A stretch of DNA of 64,000 nt from the NCBI GenBank assembly GCA_015231755.1, contig JADGAZ010000005.1, forward strand, positions 62,001 through 126,000, written 5' to 3'. This stretch comes from Magnetococcales bacterium. GTDB lineage: Bacteria; Pseudomonadota; Magnetococcia; Magnetococcales; Magnetaquicoccaceae. Positions 52,802-58,867 of this stretch are shown one piece after another. Made by a program: the position numbers and the translations under genes. The notes beneath the pieces are model-generated. The model did no database searches, had not been told where the DNA came from, and was given only the letters and a program-made list of their open reading frames with translations. How positions within the stretch are numbered: position 1 is the stretch's first letter; the number at the start of each line of letters is the position of its first letter.

Positions 52802-53665
52802 ATGACCTGGGAATTGCGGGTATTGGTGGAGCGGGCGTTCGAGGAGAGCGTTGCCGATCATTTGACGGCGGAAGGCTCCATGGGGGTTTCCGCCACGGTG
52901 GCCGGGGATCGGTTGCTGGTGACGGGTTACTTCGATCCGGAGGTGGATCGAACCGGCGTGGAGATCCGGCTGTTGCTGGTTCTGGCCGCTGCGGGGTGGG
53001 TGGCCGAAGAGCAGGCGGTCACCTGGCGGTTTCTGGCCGAGCAGGATTGGGCCGAGGCGTGGAAGGAGTCCTACACGTCCCTGCCCGTGGGCAAAGGGTT
53101 GTTGATCGTGCCCTCCTGGCTGGAAGAGCCTGCCGATTCCGGGCGTCGGGTGTTGCGCATGGATCCGGAGATGGCCTTTGGCAGTGGCACCCATGCCACC
53201 ACCCGGGGCTGTCTGGAACTGCTGGAGGAGGTGGCGGGTCAAAAGCCTTTGGGGCGGGTGCTGGACATGGGATGCGGTTCCGGGGTGTTGGGGATCTGGG
53301 CCGCCATGCTGGGGGCCGAGGGGGTGGTGGGGACCGATCTGGATCCGGTGGCCGTGGAGACCGCCCAACGCAATGCCCGGCTCAACGGGGTCGGGGAGCG
53401 GCTGGAAATCATCGAATGTGCCCAGGTGCCGGATGGTCCGTTTCAGACCATTGTGGCCAACATTCTGGCATCGGTGTTGTTGTCGGCGGTGGTGCCGTTG
53501 GTGGCGGCGTTGGCGCCGGGGGGCAGTCTGATTCTCTCCGGAGTGCTGCGGGAGCAGGCCCGTGAAGTGCAATTGGCGTTCGAGGGGGAAGGGGTGCGGT
53601 TGGATCGGACCCTGTTCATCGAGGAGTGGGCCGTGCTGTTATTGAAATTCGGAGAGGGATCATGA
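52802..53665 (+). CDS. prmA: ribosomal protein L11 methyltransferase
   Basis: PrmA trimethylates L11 (rplK, 19541) with S-adenosylmethionine. Visible are the N-terminal substrate domain, WAEAWKESYTSLPVG, DPEMAFGSGTHATTRGCLEL, the SAM motif VLDMGCGSGVLGI and TIVANILASVLL. At 287 residues it fits the family. GGGGAGA precedes the ATG. Its stop overlaps the mtnA start (TCATGA), so the two genes are translationally coupled. Confidence 0.95.
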   Translation: MTWELRVLVERAFEESVADHLTAEGSMGVSATVAGDRLLVTGYFDPEVDRTGVEIRLLLVLAAAGWVAEEQAVTWRFLAEQDWAEAWKESYTSLPVGKGLLIVPSWLEEPADSGRRVLRMDPEMAFGSGTHATTRGCLELLEEVAGQKPLGRVLDMGCGSGVLGIWAAMLGAEGVVGTDLDPVAVETAQRNARLNGVGERLEIIECAQVPDGPFQTIVANILASVLLSAVVPLVAALAPGGSLILSGVLREQAREVQLAFEGEGVRLDRTLFIEEWAVLLLKFGEGS

Positions 53666-54711
53666 CGGTTTTCGATGTGGCGGTTTGGAAGAATGGCAAG
53701 GTGCGCATGCTGGATCAGCGGCGTTTGCCAAGCGATGAGATCTACCATGATTACGGTTCCGCGGCGGAGGTGGCGGAGGCTATCCGGGATATGGTGGTGC
53801 GGGGGGCGCCGGCCATCGGTTGCGCGGCGGCTTTCGGGGTGGCGGTGGAGGCGTTTCGGCTGGCGCGGGAGGGCATTCCCGACTCCTGGTCTCAGGCCAT
53901 GGATCCCGCCATGCGGCAGTTGCGGGCGGCCCGGCCCACGGCGGTGAATCTGGCCTGGGCTTTGGATCGGTTGCAACCGTTGCTGGCCGGGGAGCCTGAA
54001 GGTGTGCCGGAGCGGTTGCTGGCGGAAGCCGAGGCGATCCATCGGGAGGATATCGCGTCGTGTCGGGCCATGGGTGCGGCGGGTGCGGCCATTCTGCCCA
54101 TCCCGGCTGGCGGGAGACCCCTGGCCATCATGACCCATTGCAACGCCGGCGCTCTGGCCACGGCGGGATACGGGACCGCCCTGGGGGTGATCCGCGCCGC
54201 CCGGGATCGCTTCGGATCGGTGATGGTGTATGCCACCGAAACCCGGCCCTATCTGCAAGGGGCCCGTCTGACCGCCTGGGAGTTGCTCCACGATGGTTTC
54301 GACGTGACCTTGATGACCGATTCCATGGCGGGTCACGCCATGAGTCGCGGATTGGTGGATGTGGTGGTGGTGGGAGCGGATCGGGTGGCGGCCAATGGCG
54401 ATGTGGCCAACAAGATCGGTACCTATGCCCATGCGGTGCTGGCCAAACGGCACGGCATTCCGTTTCTGGTGGCCTGTCCCCTGTCCACCATCGACCTGAA
54501 CACCCCCACAGGCGCGCATATCCCCATCGAGGAGCGTTCCGAAGAAGAGGTGACCCATTTTTCGGGACAGCGGGTGGCCCCCAATGGGGTGCGGGTGTTC
54601 AATCCCGCCTTCGATGTGACTCCCGCCGAGCTGATTGCGGCGCTGATCACGGAAAAAGGTGTGGTCCGCGCCCCGGATGTCGCGGGGATCCGGGGACTGT
54701 TCGGCTCTTGA
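53662..54711 (+). CDS. mtnA: S-methyl-5-thioribose-1-phosphate isomerase
   Basis: MtnA converts methylthioribose-1-phosphate to methylthioribulose-1-phosphate in the methionine salvage pathway. It shows VRGAPAIGCAAAFG, MTHCNAGALATAGYGTALGV with the catalytic Cys, ATETRPYLQGARLTAWEL and VVVGADRVAANGDVANKIGT with the catalytic Asp. The ATG at 53662 overlaps the prmA stop and gives 349 residues, the usual length. No other methionine-salvage gene is in the window. Confidence 0.94.
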   Translation: MTVFDVAVWKNGKVRMLDQRRLPSDEIYHDYGSAAEVAEAIRDMVVRGAPAIGCAAAFGVAVEAFRLAREGIPDSWSQAMDPAMRQLRAARPTAVNLAWALDRLQPLLAGEPEGVPERLLAEAEAIHREDIASCRAMGAAGAAILPIPAGGRPLAIMTHCNAGALATAGYGTALGVIRAARDRFGSVMVYATETRPYLQGARLTAWELLHDGFDVTLMTDSMAGHAMSRGLVDVVVVGADRVAANGDVANKIGTYAHAVLAKRHGIPFLVACPLSTIDLNTPTGAHIPIEERSEEEVTHFSGQRVAPNGVRVFNPAFDVTPAELIAALITEKGVVRAPDVAGIRGLFGS

Positions 54712-55662: not shown

Positions 55663-56451
55663 ATGGATGAACTGGATGACAAGCCGGCGTTTCCCCCTTC
55701 CGGGTCGCCTGGATGGTTGATGCCCCTTGTCAGCATGATGGCCATGCTGCTGGCGGTGTGCATTCTGCTGCTTTCCATCTCCCGTCCGGATCGTCTTCGT
55801 CTGGCCGAGGCCACCTCTTCGATTCGCTCTGCGTTCGGATTGGATGTATCCGACATCATCCTGCCCACCACGGGGGCGACCAACGATTCCGCCGGACTGC
55901 AAGAGGCCATCGCGTTTGAACAGGCCATCCAACTGGTGCGGATCAAGGAAAAACTGGAACGGATGCAAAACCGTCTGCCGGATGCCAAGGGGCTGGAGGT
56001 GATGGCGGTGGAAGAGGGCTTTTTGATCCGGTTGAGCCGGAGTACCCTCTTTGCCGATGGCTCCGTGACCCTGCGGCCCGAGGTGGTCCCTTTGCTGAAG
56101 GAAATGGCTCAGATGTACGCCCGGCTTCCCAACGTCATTCGCATCGACAGCCATGGGGGGGAGTCCAAACCGTCTTCTTCCGGTGGAGGCATGAACAGTG
56201 TCTGGGCCACCAGTGCCGCCGAGGCCGCCACCTTGGCCGATTTCATGGTGACCGTGGGGGGGCTGGATGTGGCGCGCCTGATTCCTTCCGGACATCCCGC
56301 GCCCCGGGCCGGTGGTCCAGGTCAGGAGGGAAAGGGCCGTGGGGTGGGAATCGAAATCCTGTTGACCCGGGAAGTCCGCGCCGAAGTCAAACCTCCGTCG
56401 GGTCCGGCTGGAGTCTCGTCAGAGGCCGCCGCTCCGGGCGCCTCCAAGTAG
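55663..56451 (+). CDS. MotB-like stator protein lacking the ion-binding aspartate
   Basis: The protein (262 residues) has the MotB layout: a short cytoplasmic tail, one transmembrane helix and a periplasmic OmpA-like domain (about residues 105-245). In MotB/PomB the helix reads W....(A/V)D(L/M)M..L, where Asp carries the ion. Here residues 18-26 read WLMPLVSMM, so Ser24 (AGC at 55732-55734) replaces Asp, and no other acidic residue lies in the helix. The OmpA-like part is also altered: IDSHGGES instead of the usual GHTD, and GRGVGIEIL instead of NRRVEI. The ATG follows AAGGTA, 50 nt after motA. Either a non-canonical stator or a related energised-channel partner. Confidence 0.8.
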   Translation: MDELDDKPAFPPSGSPGWLMPLVSMMAMLLAVCILLLSISRPDRLRLAEATSSIRSAFGLDVSDIILPTTGATNDSAGLQEAIAFEQAIQLVRIKEKLERMQNRLPDAKGLEVMAVEEGFLIRLSRSTLFADGSVTLRPEVVPLLKEMAQMYARLPNVIRIDSHGGESKPSSSGGGMNSVWATSAAEAATLADFMVTVGGLDVARLIPSGHPAPRAGGPGQEGKGRGVGIEILLTREVRAEVKPPSGPAGVSSEAAAPGASK

Positions 56452-56470: not shown

Positions 56471-57064
56471 ATGTCTCAATCCAACCCCGCTTCAGGTCAG
56501 CAGCGTCAATTCGTCCGGGTGGATGATTCCCTTCCCTTGGCTTGGCGGCGCATCGAGGAGTCCCGTTTTCGGGAAATTCTGGCCTATTTCGAGAAACATC
56601 GGGTGTTTCCGCAAAAAGGCAATGATGTGCATCAGGTGATCACCTCTTTGGATGTCACCGATTCCCTGCGCAAAATGGAACAGAGCGATCCTCTGCTGGC
56701 CCGGGTGCTGAGTCGTTTGGATCAGAAACTCAATTTGTTGCTGCGGCTGTTTCATCCCGGCGAGTCGGATCGTCCCATGGTCATCACGCCGGTCAATCTG
56801 AGCGGGGGTGGGGTCTCTTTTCTGGAAAAGGATCCGGGGCTGTCCAAAGGGGAGATCCTGGAAATCCGGCTGGCCCTCTCCGTGGACGCCTTGACGGTGA
56901 TCGAGTGCTTCGGCAGGGTGATGGTGGTCTCTGAAAATGCCCAGGATGGCCTGACCCGTGTGGCCTGTCGTTTTGAACCGATTCTGGATCCGGACCGGGA
57001 ACGGCTGATTCAATACATTTTCTGGCGCCAATCCGAATTGTTGCGGGCCAAGAGCGGTTATTAG
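56471..57064 (+). CDS. PilZ-domain protein (probable c-di-GMP receptor)
   Basis: The PilZ motifs needed for c-di-GMP binding are both present. RxxxR reads RQFVR (Arg12, Arg16), and the (D/N)xSxxG motif reads NLSGGG (Asn109, Ser111, Gly114) within VNLSGGGVSFLEKD. About 90 residues of helical sequence separate the two motifs, which is unusual, because in most PilZ domains they are about 20-30 residues apart. The same layout recurs in the next gene. It follows the motB-like gene, so it may control stator use, as YcgR does in enterics; that is inference. Confidence 0.85.
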   Translation: MSQSNPASGQQRQFVRVDDSLPLAWRRIEESRFREILAYFEKHRVFPQKGNDVHQVITSLDVTDSLRKMEQSDPLLARVLSRLDQKLNLLLRLFHPGESDRPMVITPVNLSGGGVSFLEKDPGLSKGEILEIRLALSVDALTVIECFGRVMVVSENAQDGLTRVACRFEPILDPDRERLIQYIFWRQSELLRAKSGY

Positions 57065-57094: not shown

Positions 57095-58867
57095 ATGACC
57101 GGGAATGCGACGGCAATGGGCTCCAGTGTGATCGAGGTTCCATTGTGGTGGCGAAAGCTCAATGCCGTGGAAATCGAAGCCGTGGTGCGGGCCAGGCGGG
57201 GCAAACATCTCTCTCCGGTGCTGCAACCGGGGCTGGGCCATGAGGTTCGTACCCTGTTGGACGCGGAGCAGGCGCGAGATTCCGATGAGGGATTTTTCGC
57301 CTCGATTGCCCGCAAATGGCGTCTGGTGGCGCTGGAGACCTTCAACGCCAAGCTCAACCGTCTGGTGGAGCGGGCCCATCCCGGTCAGGACACCTTTCAA
57401 CCCCACCCCCTGCAATGGCATGAGTCCGGAGAGGGGTTGACCTTTTGGGTGTCGGAAGGGGATGTGGGGGTCGGGGATTTTATCGAGATGCGTTTTTCTC
57501 TGTTTCCCGAGCAGCCGGTGCCGGTACATGCCTATTGCCGGGTGCGGCGGGTGCGGCGGGAGTGGAGTGGCACCGGGTTGCGGGTGGAGTGCAGCTTTGC
57601 AAACCTGGAAAGTCCAGCGTCGGCCCCGCCGCCGCCTTCCCCCGTGGACGAGGAGGTCCCGGGACTGATCATGCCCTCACCGATCCGCAAGACTCCGGAA
57701 CCGGATCTTTCCGAACGTATGCCTTCCCCCCGATCCGCTGTTTCCCTTTCCCAACCCGTCGGTTCCTCCGGGCCTGCGACGGATCGCAAGAGTCGTCTCG
57801 AACAGACCCTGGCGGCGGGCAAGGCCATGGTCGATGCGGATCCCAGAGCGGTCGCCGCCCATGTGACCCCTCATGCCCATCCGGTGTTGCACACCACTTT
57901 GCCCAGGGCGACTCCCGCCCCGCCGGCGGTTGTCCAGCCGGTGCCGGCGGGTGGTTCCAAGCGTCAGGATTTCCGGATCAACGACAATCTGCCCCTCACC
58001 TGGAAAGTGATCTCCCAGAAAACCTTCGATCAGGCGGTGGCCCATTTCGAGATGCATCGGGAGTTCCCGATGCGGGAGCGGGTGGCCCGGCAAAAACGGA
58101 TCCTGGCGGAGGTGGATGTGCAATTGAAGTTGCTGCGTCAACTCAACGTCAAGGCGCGTCGGCCTGTGGTGTGGTTTCGCGAGTTTCTGGATCGACGTTT
58201 CCGGCAGGCCAACGCGGAGAACGAAGAGGAGTATTTCCAGAGCGTTTTGATCTTTTTTTTCAGTTTGACCAAGGATCTGACCAAACGTCCGTCAGGCTCG
58301 ATGATCGCTGCCCAGGTGGTTTCCCTCATCAAGGATCAAGTGGATCTTCAGATCGCCCGGGACCATGGGGAACCCGGTGTGCCCCAATTGCCCAAGAGCA
58401 AGGTGGAAGAGGATCTGGCGGAGATCAACCGGCAGATCACCAAGTTGATGGGGGAGTTGCGGGGGCTTTCCCCGGAGTTGGCGGAGAAGATCGTCGGATT
58501 CCGGGAGGTGCTTTCCTTGATGGATCTATCCAGCCAGGATCTTCCCAAACATTTGACGCCAGAAGGCGATGCGGTTTTTGCCGTCAATCTGAGTGCCACG
58601 GGGGTGGCCTGGAAAACCTCGAAGGATCGGGTCTATCGGGGGGATCTGGTGGAGGTGCGTCTGGGGGTGGATCCGCAAGGGGATGGGTTGGAACCGATCT
58701 GGGCCTATGGCCGGGTGGTGGTGGTCCAGGAACCGGATGATCAAGGCAAGCGTCGGGTGGCCAGTTATTTTGAACACATGTCGCCATTGCATCGGGAGAA
58801 GTTGCAAAGTCACATGGTCCGCAGGCAGCGTTCGGAACTGATGCGACGGGCCAACACCCCCTCATGA
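57095..58867 (+). CDS. large protein with one intact and one degenerate PilZ-like domain
   Basis: The C-terminal part (about residues 285-590) repeats the layout of the preceding PilZ protein: RQDFR (Arg290, Arg294) followed by a helical insert of about 200 residues and then NLSATG (Asn498, Ser500, Gly503) in VNLSATGVAW. The N-terminal 175 residues look like a degenerate PilZ barrel (HESGEGLTFWVSEGD, then VGDFIEMRFSLF and HAYCRVRRVRR) without RxxxR. A Pro/Ser-rich linker of about 100 residues joins the two. The long insert contains DLTKRPSG and coiled-coil-like helices. It is translated from GGGGAGAG and ends 6 nt past the stop of the convergent gene. Confidence 0.75.
   Translation: MTGNATAMGSSVIEVPLWWRKLNAVEIEAVVRARRGKHLSPVLQPGLGHEVRTLLDAEQARDSDEGFFASIARKWRLVALETFNAKLNRLVERAHPGQDTFQPHPLQWHESGEGLTFWVSEGDVGVGDFIEMRFSLFPEQPVPVHAYCRVRRVRREWSGTGLRVECSFANLESPASAPPPPSPVDEEVPGLIMPSPIRKTPEPDLSERMPSPRSAVSLSQPVGSSGPATDRKSRLEQTLAAGKAMVDADPRAVAAHVTPHAHPVLHTTLPRATPAPPAVVQPVPAGGSKRQDFRINDNLPLTWKVISQKTFDQAVAHFEMHREFPMRERVARQKRILAEVDVQLKLLRQLNVKARRPVVWFREFLDRRFRQANAENEEEYFQSVLIFFFSLTKDLTKRPSGSMIAAQVVSLIKDQVDLQIARDHGEPGVPQLPKSKVEEDLAEINRQITKLMGELRGLSPELAEKIVGFREVLSLMDLSSQDLPKHLTPEGDAVFAVNLSATGVAWKTSKDRVYRGDLVEVRLGVDPQGDGLEPIWAYGRVVVVQEPDDQGKRRVASYFEHMSPLHREKLQSHMVRRQRSELMRRANTPS

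Follow-up and report, generated by a model that had tools for sequence, protein, structure and literature searches.

The Locus

The sequence examined here (the window) is a stretch of 64,000 nucleotides from a Magnetococcales metagenome-assembled genome (3.84 Mb, 98% complete), which has a public relative at 71–74% identity. It contains a stator gene pair followed by two PilZ genes, and the gene order prmA-mtnA-motA-motB-pilZ1-pilZ2 (Table 1) is syntenic across the Magnetococcales families, with some losses and rearrangements. The names prmA-like and mtnA-like for the two upstream genes are what we take them to be. The motAB-pilZ locus lies outside the flagellar gene cluster.

Table 1. Features of the motAB-pilZ locus, in positions of the window.
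Feature	Positions	Strand	Evidence
Upstream marker genes of the conserved locus (prmA-like, mtnA-like)	52802..54711	+	synteny across the order
motA, PomA-type A subunit, 250 aa	54860..55612	+	NCBIfam PomA, 268 bits; 208 bits to PomA of PDB 8brd/8bri
motB-like gene, 262 aa; B subunit lacking the Asp that carries the ion	55663..56451	+	ATG start; ORF real
Single transmembrane helix of MotB, residues 19–39 (LMPLVSMMAMLL...)	55717..55779	+	AlphaFold2 model
Ser24 codon (AGC)	55732..55734	+	position of PomB D24 / E. coli MotB D32
Helix (residues 44–57) in the position of the MotB plug	55792..55833	+	model; MotB_plug match below cut-off
OmpA-like periplasmic domain, residues 111–238, peptidoglycan-binding Arg replaced	55993..56376	+	Pfam, alignment, model
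pilZ1, stand-alone PilZ, RQFVR (RxxxR) and NLSGGG (NxSxxG)	56471..57064	+	Pfam PilZ, 38.6 bits; motifs; synteny
pilZ2, 590 aa, C-terminal PilZ domain, RQDFR ... NLSATG	57095..58867	+	Pfam PilZ, 31.1 bits; motifs; synteny

The MotA protein is an A subunit by its Pfam match (102 bits) and by its alignment to 8bri over 235 residues, with the four helices, the MotA_ExbB core and the flagellar cytoplasmic domain. The pilZ1 gene starts 19 nt after motB, and both PilZ proteins carry the RxxxR and (D/N)xSxxG motifs, from which c-di-GMP binding is predicted. In the second genus of the family there is no second PilZ gene and pilZ1 is found upstream of motA, while the PilZ1 proteins of g2 are without the second c-di-GMP motif.

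The Ion Site and the Periplasmic Domain of MotB

An earlier note on this DNA had placed Ser24 of MotB exactly at the site of the essential ion-carrying Asp and had seen no other acid in the helix. Both points are confirmed by the alignments, in which Ser24 is the counterpart of D32 in E. coli MotB and of D24 in V. alginolyticus PomB (PDB 8bri; residues 1–61 ungapped, phmmer). The solved D24N form of the latter (PDB 8zyz) is an equally good match. Residues 19–39 are free of acids, and D43, just outside the helix, is an ordinary residue of the PomB family. A search through the membrane helices of the Asp-less pairs found no conserved substitute acid in either MotA or MotB. Only MotB/PomB/MotS/MotD-type and OmpA-like models match the window protein, and ExbD/TolR is not a better match.

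A sequencing or assembly error, which the presence of Asp at this codon in close relatives would have indicated, can be ruled out. All orthologues from the same genus (10/10) have Ser, Asn or Thr in place of the Asp, including the one on an independent public contig (JADGBT010000003.1). The Asp is present only in more distant orthologues, which argues for a loss rather than an error.

Among 24 Asp-less MotBs, the residue at the ion site is Ser in ten cases, Gly in nine, Asn and Thr in two each and Ala in one. It is thus always small and uncharged, which would allow the helix to remain packed within a MotA ring. Two nearby hydroxyls have been lost as well: the position of PomB T21 is Thr or Ser in 50/50 Asp-type but only 7/24 Asp-less MotBs, and that of PomB S27 is polar in 43/50 and 6/24, respectively.

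The architecture of one membrane helix, a plug helix and an OmpA-like domain is present in the window MotB, with Pfam matches that are below the curated cut-offs (for OmpA, 18.5 bits against 27.2). The canonical MotB of the same genome is also below the OmpA cut-off. The AlphaFold2 model has a mean pLDDT of 75 (about 90 in the periplasmic domain), and the predicted domain resembles the periplasmic structures of MotB, PomB and MotS, with E values down to 8e-9 (Foldseek). The loss of the peptidoglycan-binding sequence, to which the earlier note had drawn attention, holds for the window protein, where the Arg of the LSxxRA motif is replaced. It is, however, unspecific, as the Asp-bearing MotBs of the order share it and the fold is still predicted to be OmpA-like. 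This loss was therefore rejected as a correlate of the Asp loss, and it is unfit as support for inactivity.

As a separate observation, the OmpA-type peptidoglycan-binding Arg is missing in nearly all Magnetococcales MotBs, and since the powered ones lack it too, one may ask what anchors these stators.

The Partner MotA

In PomA, the residues T158, T185 and T186 are required for Na+ flow (PMC6677748), while coupling to the rotor needs R88, K89, E96, D114 and R232 (PMC10374538). The window MotA keeps T158 and T186 of the Na+ site but has Ser at T185, and two further replacements are M155 to Leu and A190 to Ile (V. alginolyticus PomA numbering is used throughout). All five FliG-contact residues are present, and of the conserved prolines both P151 and P199 are kept, in line with the earlier note, which had stated that the upstream MotA retains its proline.

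We have compared 23 MotA partners of Asp-less MotBs with 26 Asp-paired PomA-type relatives. The positions T185, T186, M155 and N194 are invariant in the 26 relatives, but changed in 19, seven, 19 and 11 of the 23 Asp-less partners, respectively, in 3–6 lineages; T158 is kept in 21. At the rotor face of the same 23 proteins, R88 and D114 are retained in every case and R232 in 22, whereas K89 varies only between Lys and Arg and E96 only between Glu and Asp. Overall, 12 of 23 columns have changed in TM3/TM4 compared to 7 of 33 in the cytoplasmic part, a modest excess (p 0.02, phylogeny ignored).

It is worth noting that M155L, T185A and A190I are likewise known from H+-type stators (PMC10374538), and these changes alone are therefore no proof of lost conduction. 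On the other hand, T186 and N194 do not vary in either of the two Asp-bearing stator types of the order, which means that a switch of the ion alone does not explain the pattern.

Another option considered is a stator that is coupled differently, through another ion or another set of ligands, as the earlier note had suggested. The polar residues at the site within the genus (Ser, Thr, Asn) would fit this, as would the histidines, H168 among them, that appear in the MotA helices of this genus. However, the site is Gly or Ala in other lineages, so that Ser, Gly, Asn, Thr and Ala by lineage provide no common ligand. Moreover, the Asp-less pairs share no conserved ionisable residue, and the positions T21, S27, T185 and T186 are degraded too. 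We consider this scenario extremely unlikely.

Other 5:2 complexes perform mechanical or signalling work in the envelope, and the Asp-less pair could conceivably do the same, away from the motor. The diverged periplasmic domain and the location outside the flagellar cluster are consistent with such a use. That the FliG-contact residues of MotA, the OmpA fold and the plug helix have all been kept speaks against it and makes it very unlikely.

Repeated Loss of the Aspartate

Homologues are present in nearly all genomes of the order Magnetococcales. At the orthologous locus, the Asp is kept in several families, in a total of seven genomes (G014, G019, G024, G025, G028, G034 and G039) and replaced by Ser, Thr, Asn, Gly or Ala in 21. 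As a control, the residue is kept in all 50 of the aligned Asp-type MotBs of the order. PilZ genes also adjoin the Asp-bearing copies, and do not, therefore, explain the loss.

The changes were mapped on a tree built from MotA without TM3/TM4 together with PilZ1, so that the pore columns were left out. The tree requires a minimum of five changes (bootstrap range 4–6), three of which are forced by well-supported branches, and a single origin, with the Asp-less rows held together, is rejected (p-AU 2e-86). The long branches G018 and G020 are possibly misjoined, but a correct placement would only raise the number of changes. We infer that the direction is that of loss, because the Asp is general in the family.

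Beyond the class, 90 loci from three classes were surveyed, of which 26 have no detectable MotB beside MotA. In two of these classes, every single MotB beside a PomA-like MotA has kept its Asp (33/33). In the third (that of G054; L154–L183), the PomA-like motA gene precedes a tandem of two motB-like genes in 30/30 cases; the ion-site residue is Glu (26) or Gln (4) in the first protein and Asp in the second, which suggests stators with two different B subunits. A tandem with one Ser and one Asp follows a PomA-like motA at L268:1-1474 (minus strand; G636, class of G052). The non-Asp MotBs of the surveyed other classes thus have an Asp-bearing partner in the operon, unlike the Magnetococcales locus.

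These tandems bring up the possibility of a mixed dimer of the Asp-less MotB and an Asp-bearing one from elsewhere, whose single Asp would drive the ring. In addition to the Glu/Gln-then-Asp operons of the related class and the one Ser/Asp locus, two-motB operons occur within the Magnetococcales themselves, in G032, G034 and G020. The window locus, on the other hand, has a single motB, and the Asp is absent from both copies of the G020 tandem. Furthermore, some of the Na+-site residues now missing from MotA would be required with an Asp-bearing partner too, and the window protein shares no more than about 30% identity with the powered MotB of the genome. Such a mixed stator appears quite unlikely here.

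The motA-motB-motB operons of the order are found at L110:6806-9148, L037:679-3072 and L099:5781-7820; both of the tandem MotBs have the Asp in G034 and G032.

Stator Redundancy and Selection

A second, canonical motAB, for which the earlier note had proposed to look, does exist in the same genome (contig 1, about 104 kb; L001), and its MotB has the normal Asp (ISWADMATLLL). Only one FlhA copy is present, which indicates one flagellar system with two stators encoded; a second flagellar system as the client of the Asp-less pair can thus be dismissed.

Genomes with an Asp-less copy have another Asp-bearing MotB in 22 of 23 cases, the exception being a 76% complete genome. Where the PomA-type locus has its Asp, another stator is found in 5/17 genomes and none is seen in 12/17. 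The association has a Fisher p of 1e-5, with kinship uncorrected and some of the genomes incomplete.

For the closest pairs, the dN/dS of MotA in the Asp-less stator is 0.025–0.12, mostly below 0.06 and similar to that of powered MotA, and within the genus it is about 0.03–0.05 over deep divergence. MotA thus remains under strong purifying selection. The corresponding values for MotB are 0.14–0.27, compared to 0.05–0.14 for Asp-bearing MotBs. These numbers mean that the pair is maintained, and that MotB is relaxed but not free.

The pair could also be regarded as a vestige: with the arrival of a second stator, or with Na+ in short supply, PomAB would have become jobless, and its genes would persist while decaying. 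The fact that the Asp loss tracks the presence of the other stator fits well with this, and so does the faster evolution of the Asp-less MotB, with a dN/dS of 0.14–0.23 where the powered MotB has 0.05–0.08 in the same species pairs. However, the pairs are intact in 21 genomes from six lineages, the dN/dS of MotA within the genus is as low as in powered stators, and the rotor-contact residues are selectively kept. Decay of this kind is therefore in our view unlikely, although less so than the options discussed above.

Proposed Role

The reading that we favor, with modest confidence, is that the window pair is a non-conducting, rotor-contacting "pseudo-stator" derived from an ancestral Na+-type PomAB and acting as a brake or idler under PilZ control. 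It would probably be an unpowered, regulated part of the motor rather than an engine. Most likely, MotA continues to surround the MotB helix as a ring and to present its charged face to FliG. As the carboxylate is gone and the ion site dismantled, neither Na+ nor H+ should be able to drive the pair, and an unpowered unit at the rotor would act as a brake or an idler, in competition with the powered stator encoded elsewhere. The two PilZ proteins encoded in the same operon would probably control the engagement of this unit in response to c-di-GMP. Of the possibilities raised in the earlier note, that of an inactive or regulatory stator is the one supported by the repeated Asp loss at one locus, the absence of a relocated acid, the degraded Na+ site of MotA and the Asp stator elsewhere.

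More tentatively, the motors of the Magnetococcales may possess a dedicated class of unpowered stators, repeatedly derived from PomAB, that would serve as c-di-GMP-gated brakes or idlers and have rotor contact as their sole work; we consider this generalization possible but doubtful.

A literature search, covering open-licence papers, found no described Asp-less stator. The closest known system is PomAB of Vibrio (Na+-driven; 8bri, 8brd and the D24N form 8zyz), which shares the architecture, the gene order and the ungapped MotB membrane helix. The window pair differs from it by the Ser in place of D24, the degraded T185 and its neighbours, the missing peptidoglycan-binding Arg and the attached PilZ genes. 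The canonical MotAB of the same genome, a pair of the same superfamily, has the Asp, an intact ion site and no PilZ neighbours.

The same residue has been removed in laboratory mutants (E. coli MotB D32A/N, Salmonella D33N, Pseudomonas MotB D30A, Vibrio PomB D24N), and ion coupling is abolished in Asp mutants (PMC12288467). In contrast to these, the loss seen here is natural, fixed, evolutionarily repeated and maintained by selection. The mutants behave differently at the motor: P. aeruginosa MotB-D30A appears to be dominant-negative, possibly by competing for places in the motor, and Salmonella D33N stators are still incorporated but dissociate from the motor faster, while with E. coli MotB-D32A the motor occupancy is lost (all PMC12288467). 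The last case counts against our proposal, since it implies that units lacking the Asp may fail to take their place at the rotor. The PilZ genes beside Asp-bearing copies and the missing second motif of the g2 PilZ1 proteins count against it too.

PilZ proteins slow motors via MotA and FliG (PMC10140304, PMC12713396), and MotL is a PilZ regulator that is encoded directly after motAB and slows the motor (PMC8203827). The likeness of the window to these brakes and clutches (YcgR, MotL, MotI (DgrA)) lies in the PilZ proteins with c-di-GMP motifs beside motAB. In those systems, however, the stator is powered, whereas here the adjacent stator itself is without the ion residue.

The repeated Asp loss with a selected rotor face represents a natural experiment that separates ion coupling from rotor contact, and it allows the MotA residues that depend on the Asp (M155, T185, T186, N194) to be told apart from the independent ones. 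The Asp-less pairs could also serve as ready-made test proteins for the gear model, for competition among stators and for braking by PilZ proteins.

Other Motor-Related Genes

Stand-alone FliG C-domain proteins of about 145–200 aa, such as L132:1369-1851 (G000, contig 13) and its relatives, occur in most of two genera and in one further family, and coexist with a full-length FliG encoded elsewhere. As a dedicated partner of the Asp-less pair they were rejected, since they are also found in a family with Asp-keeping PomAB and are missing in several Asp-less genomes.

In the second genus of the family, the MotB-like genes of five loci (L073, L111, L113, L116 and L125) encode Asn at the ion site and are in this sense natural "D24N" forms; within the few kb covered, no motA was detected alongside them. 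The genome of the window encodes two more MotB_plug proteins that have the Asp (L002:1465-2262 and L003:1474-2229), with no adjoining motA detected. The gene at L003 follows a gene for a long helical protein, and may resemble the MotB-like genes of Zorya-type systems or of magnetosome clusters.
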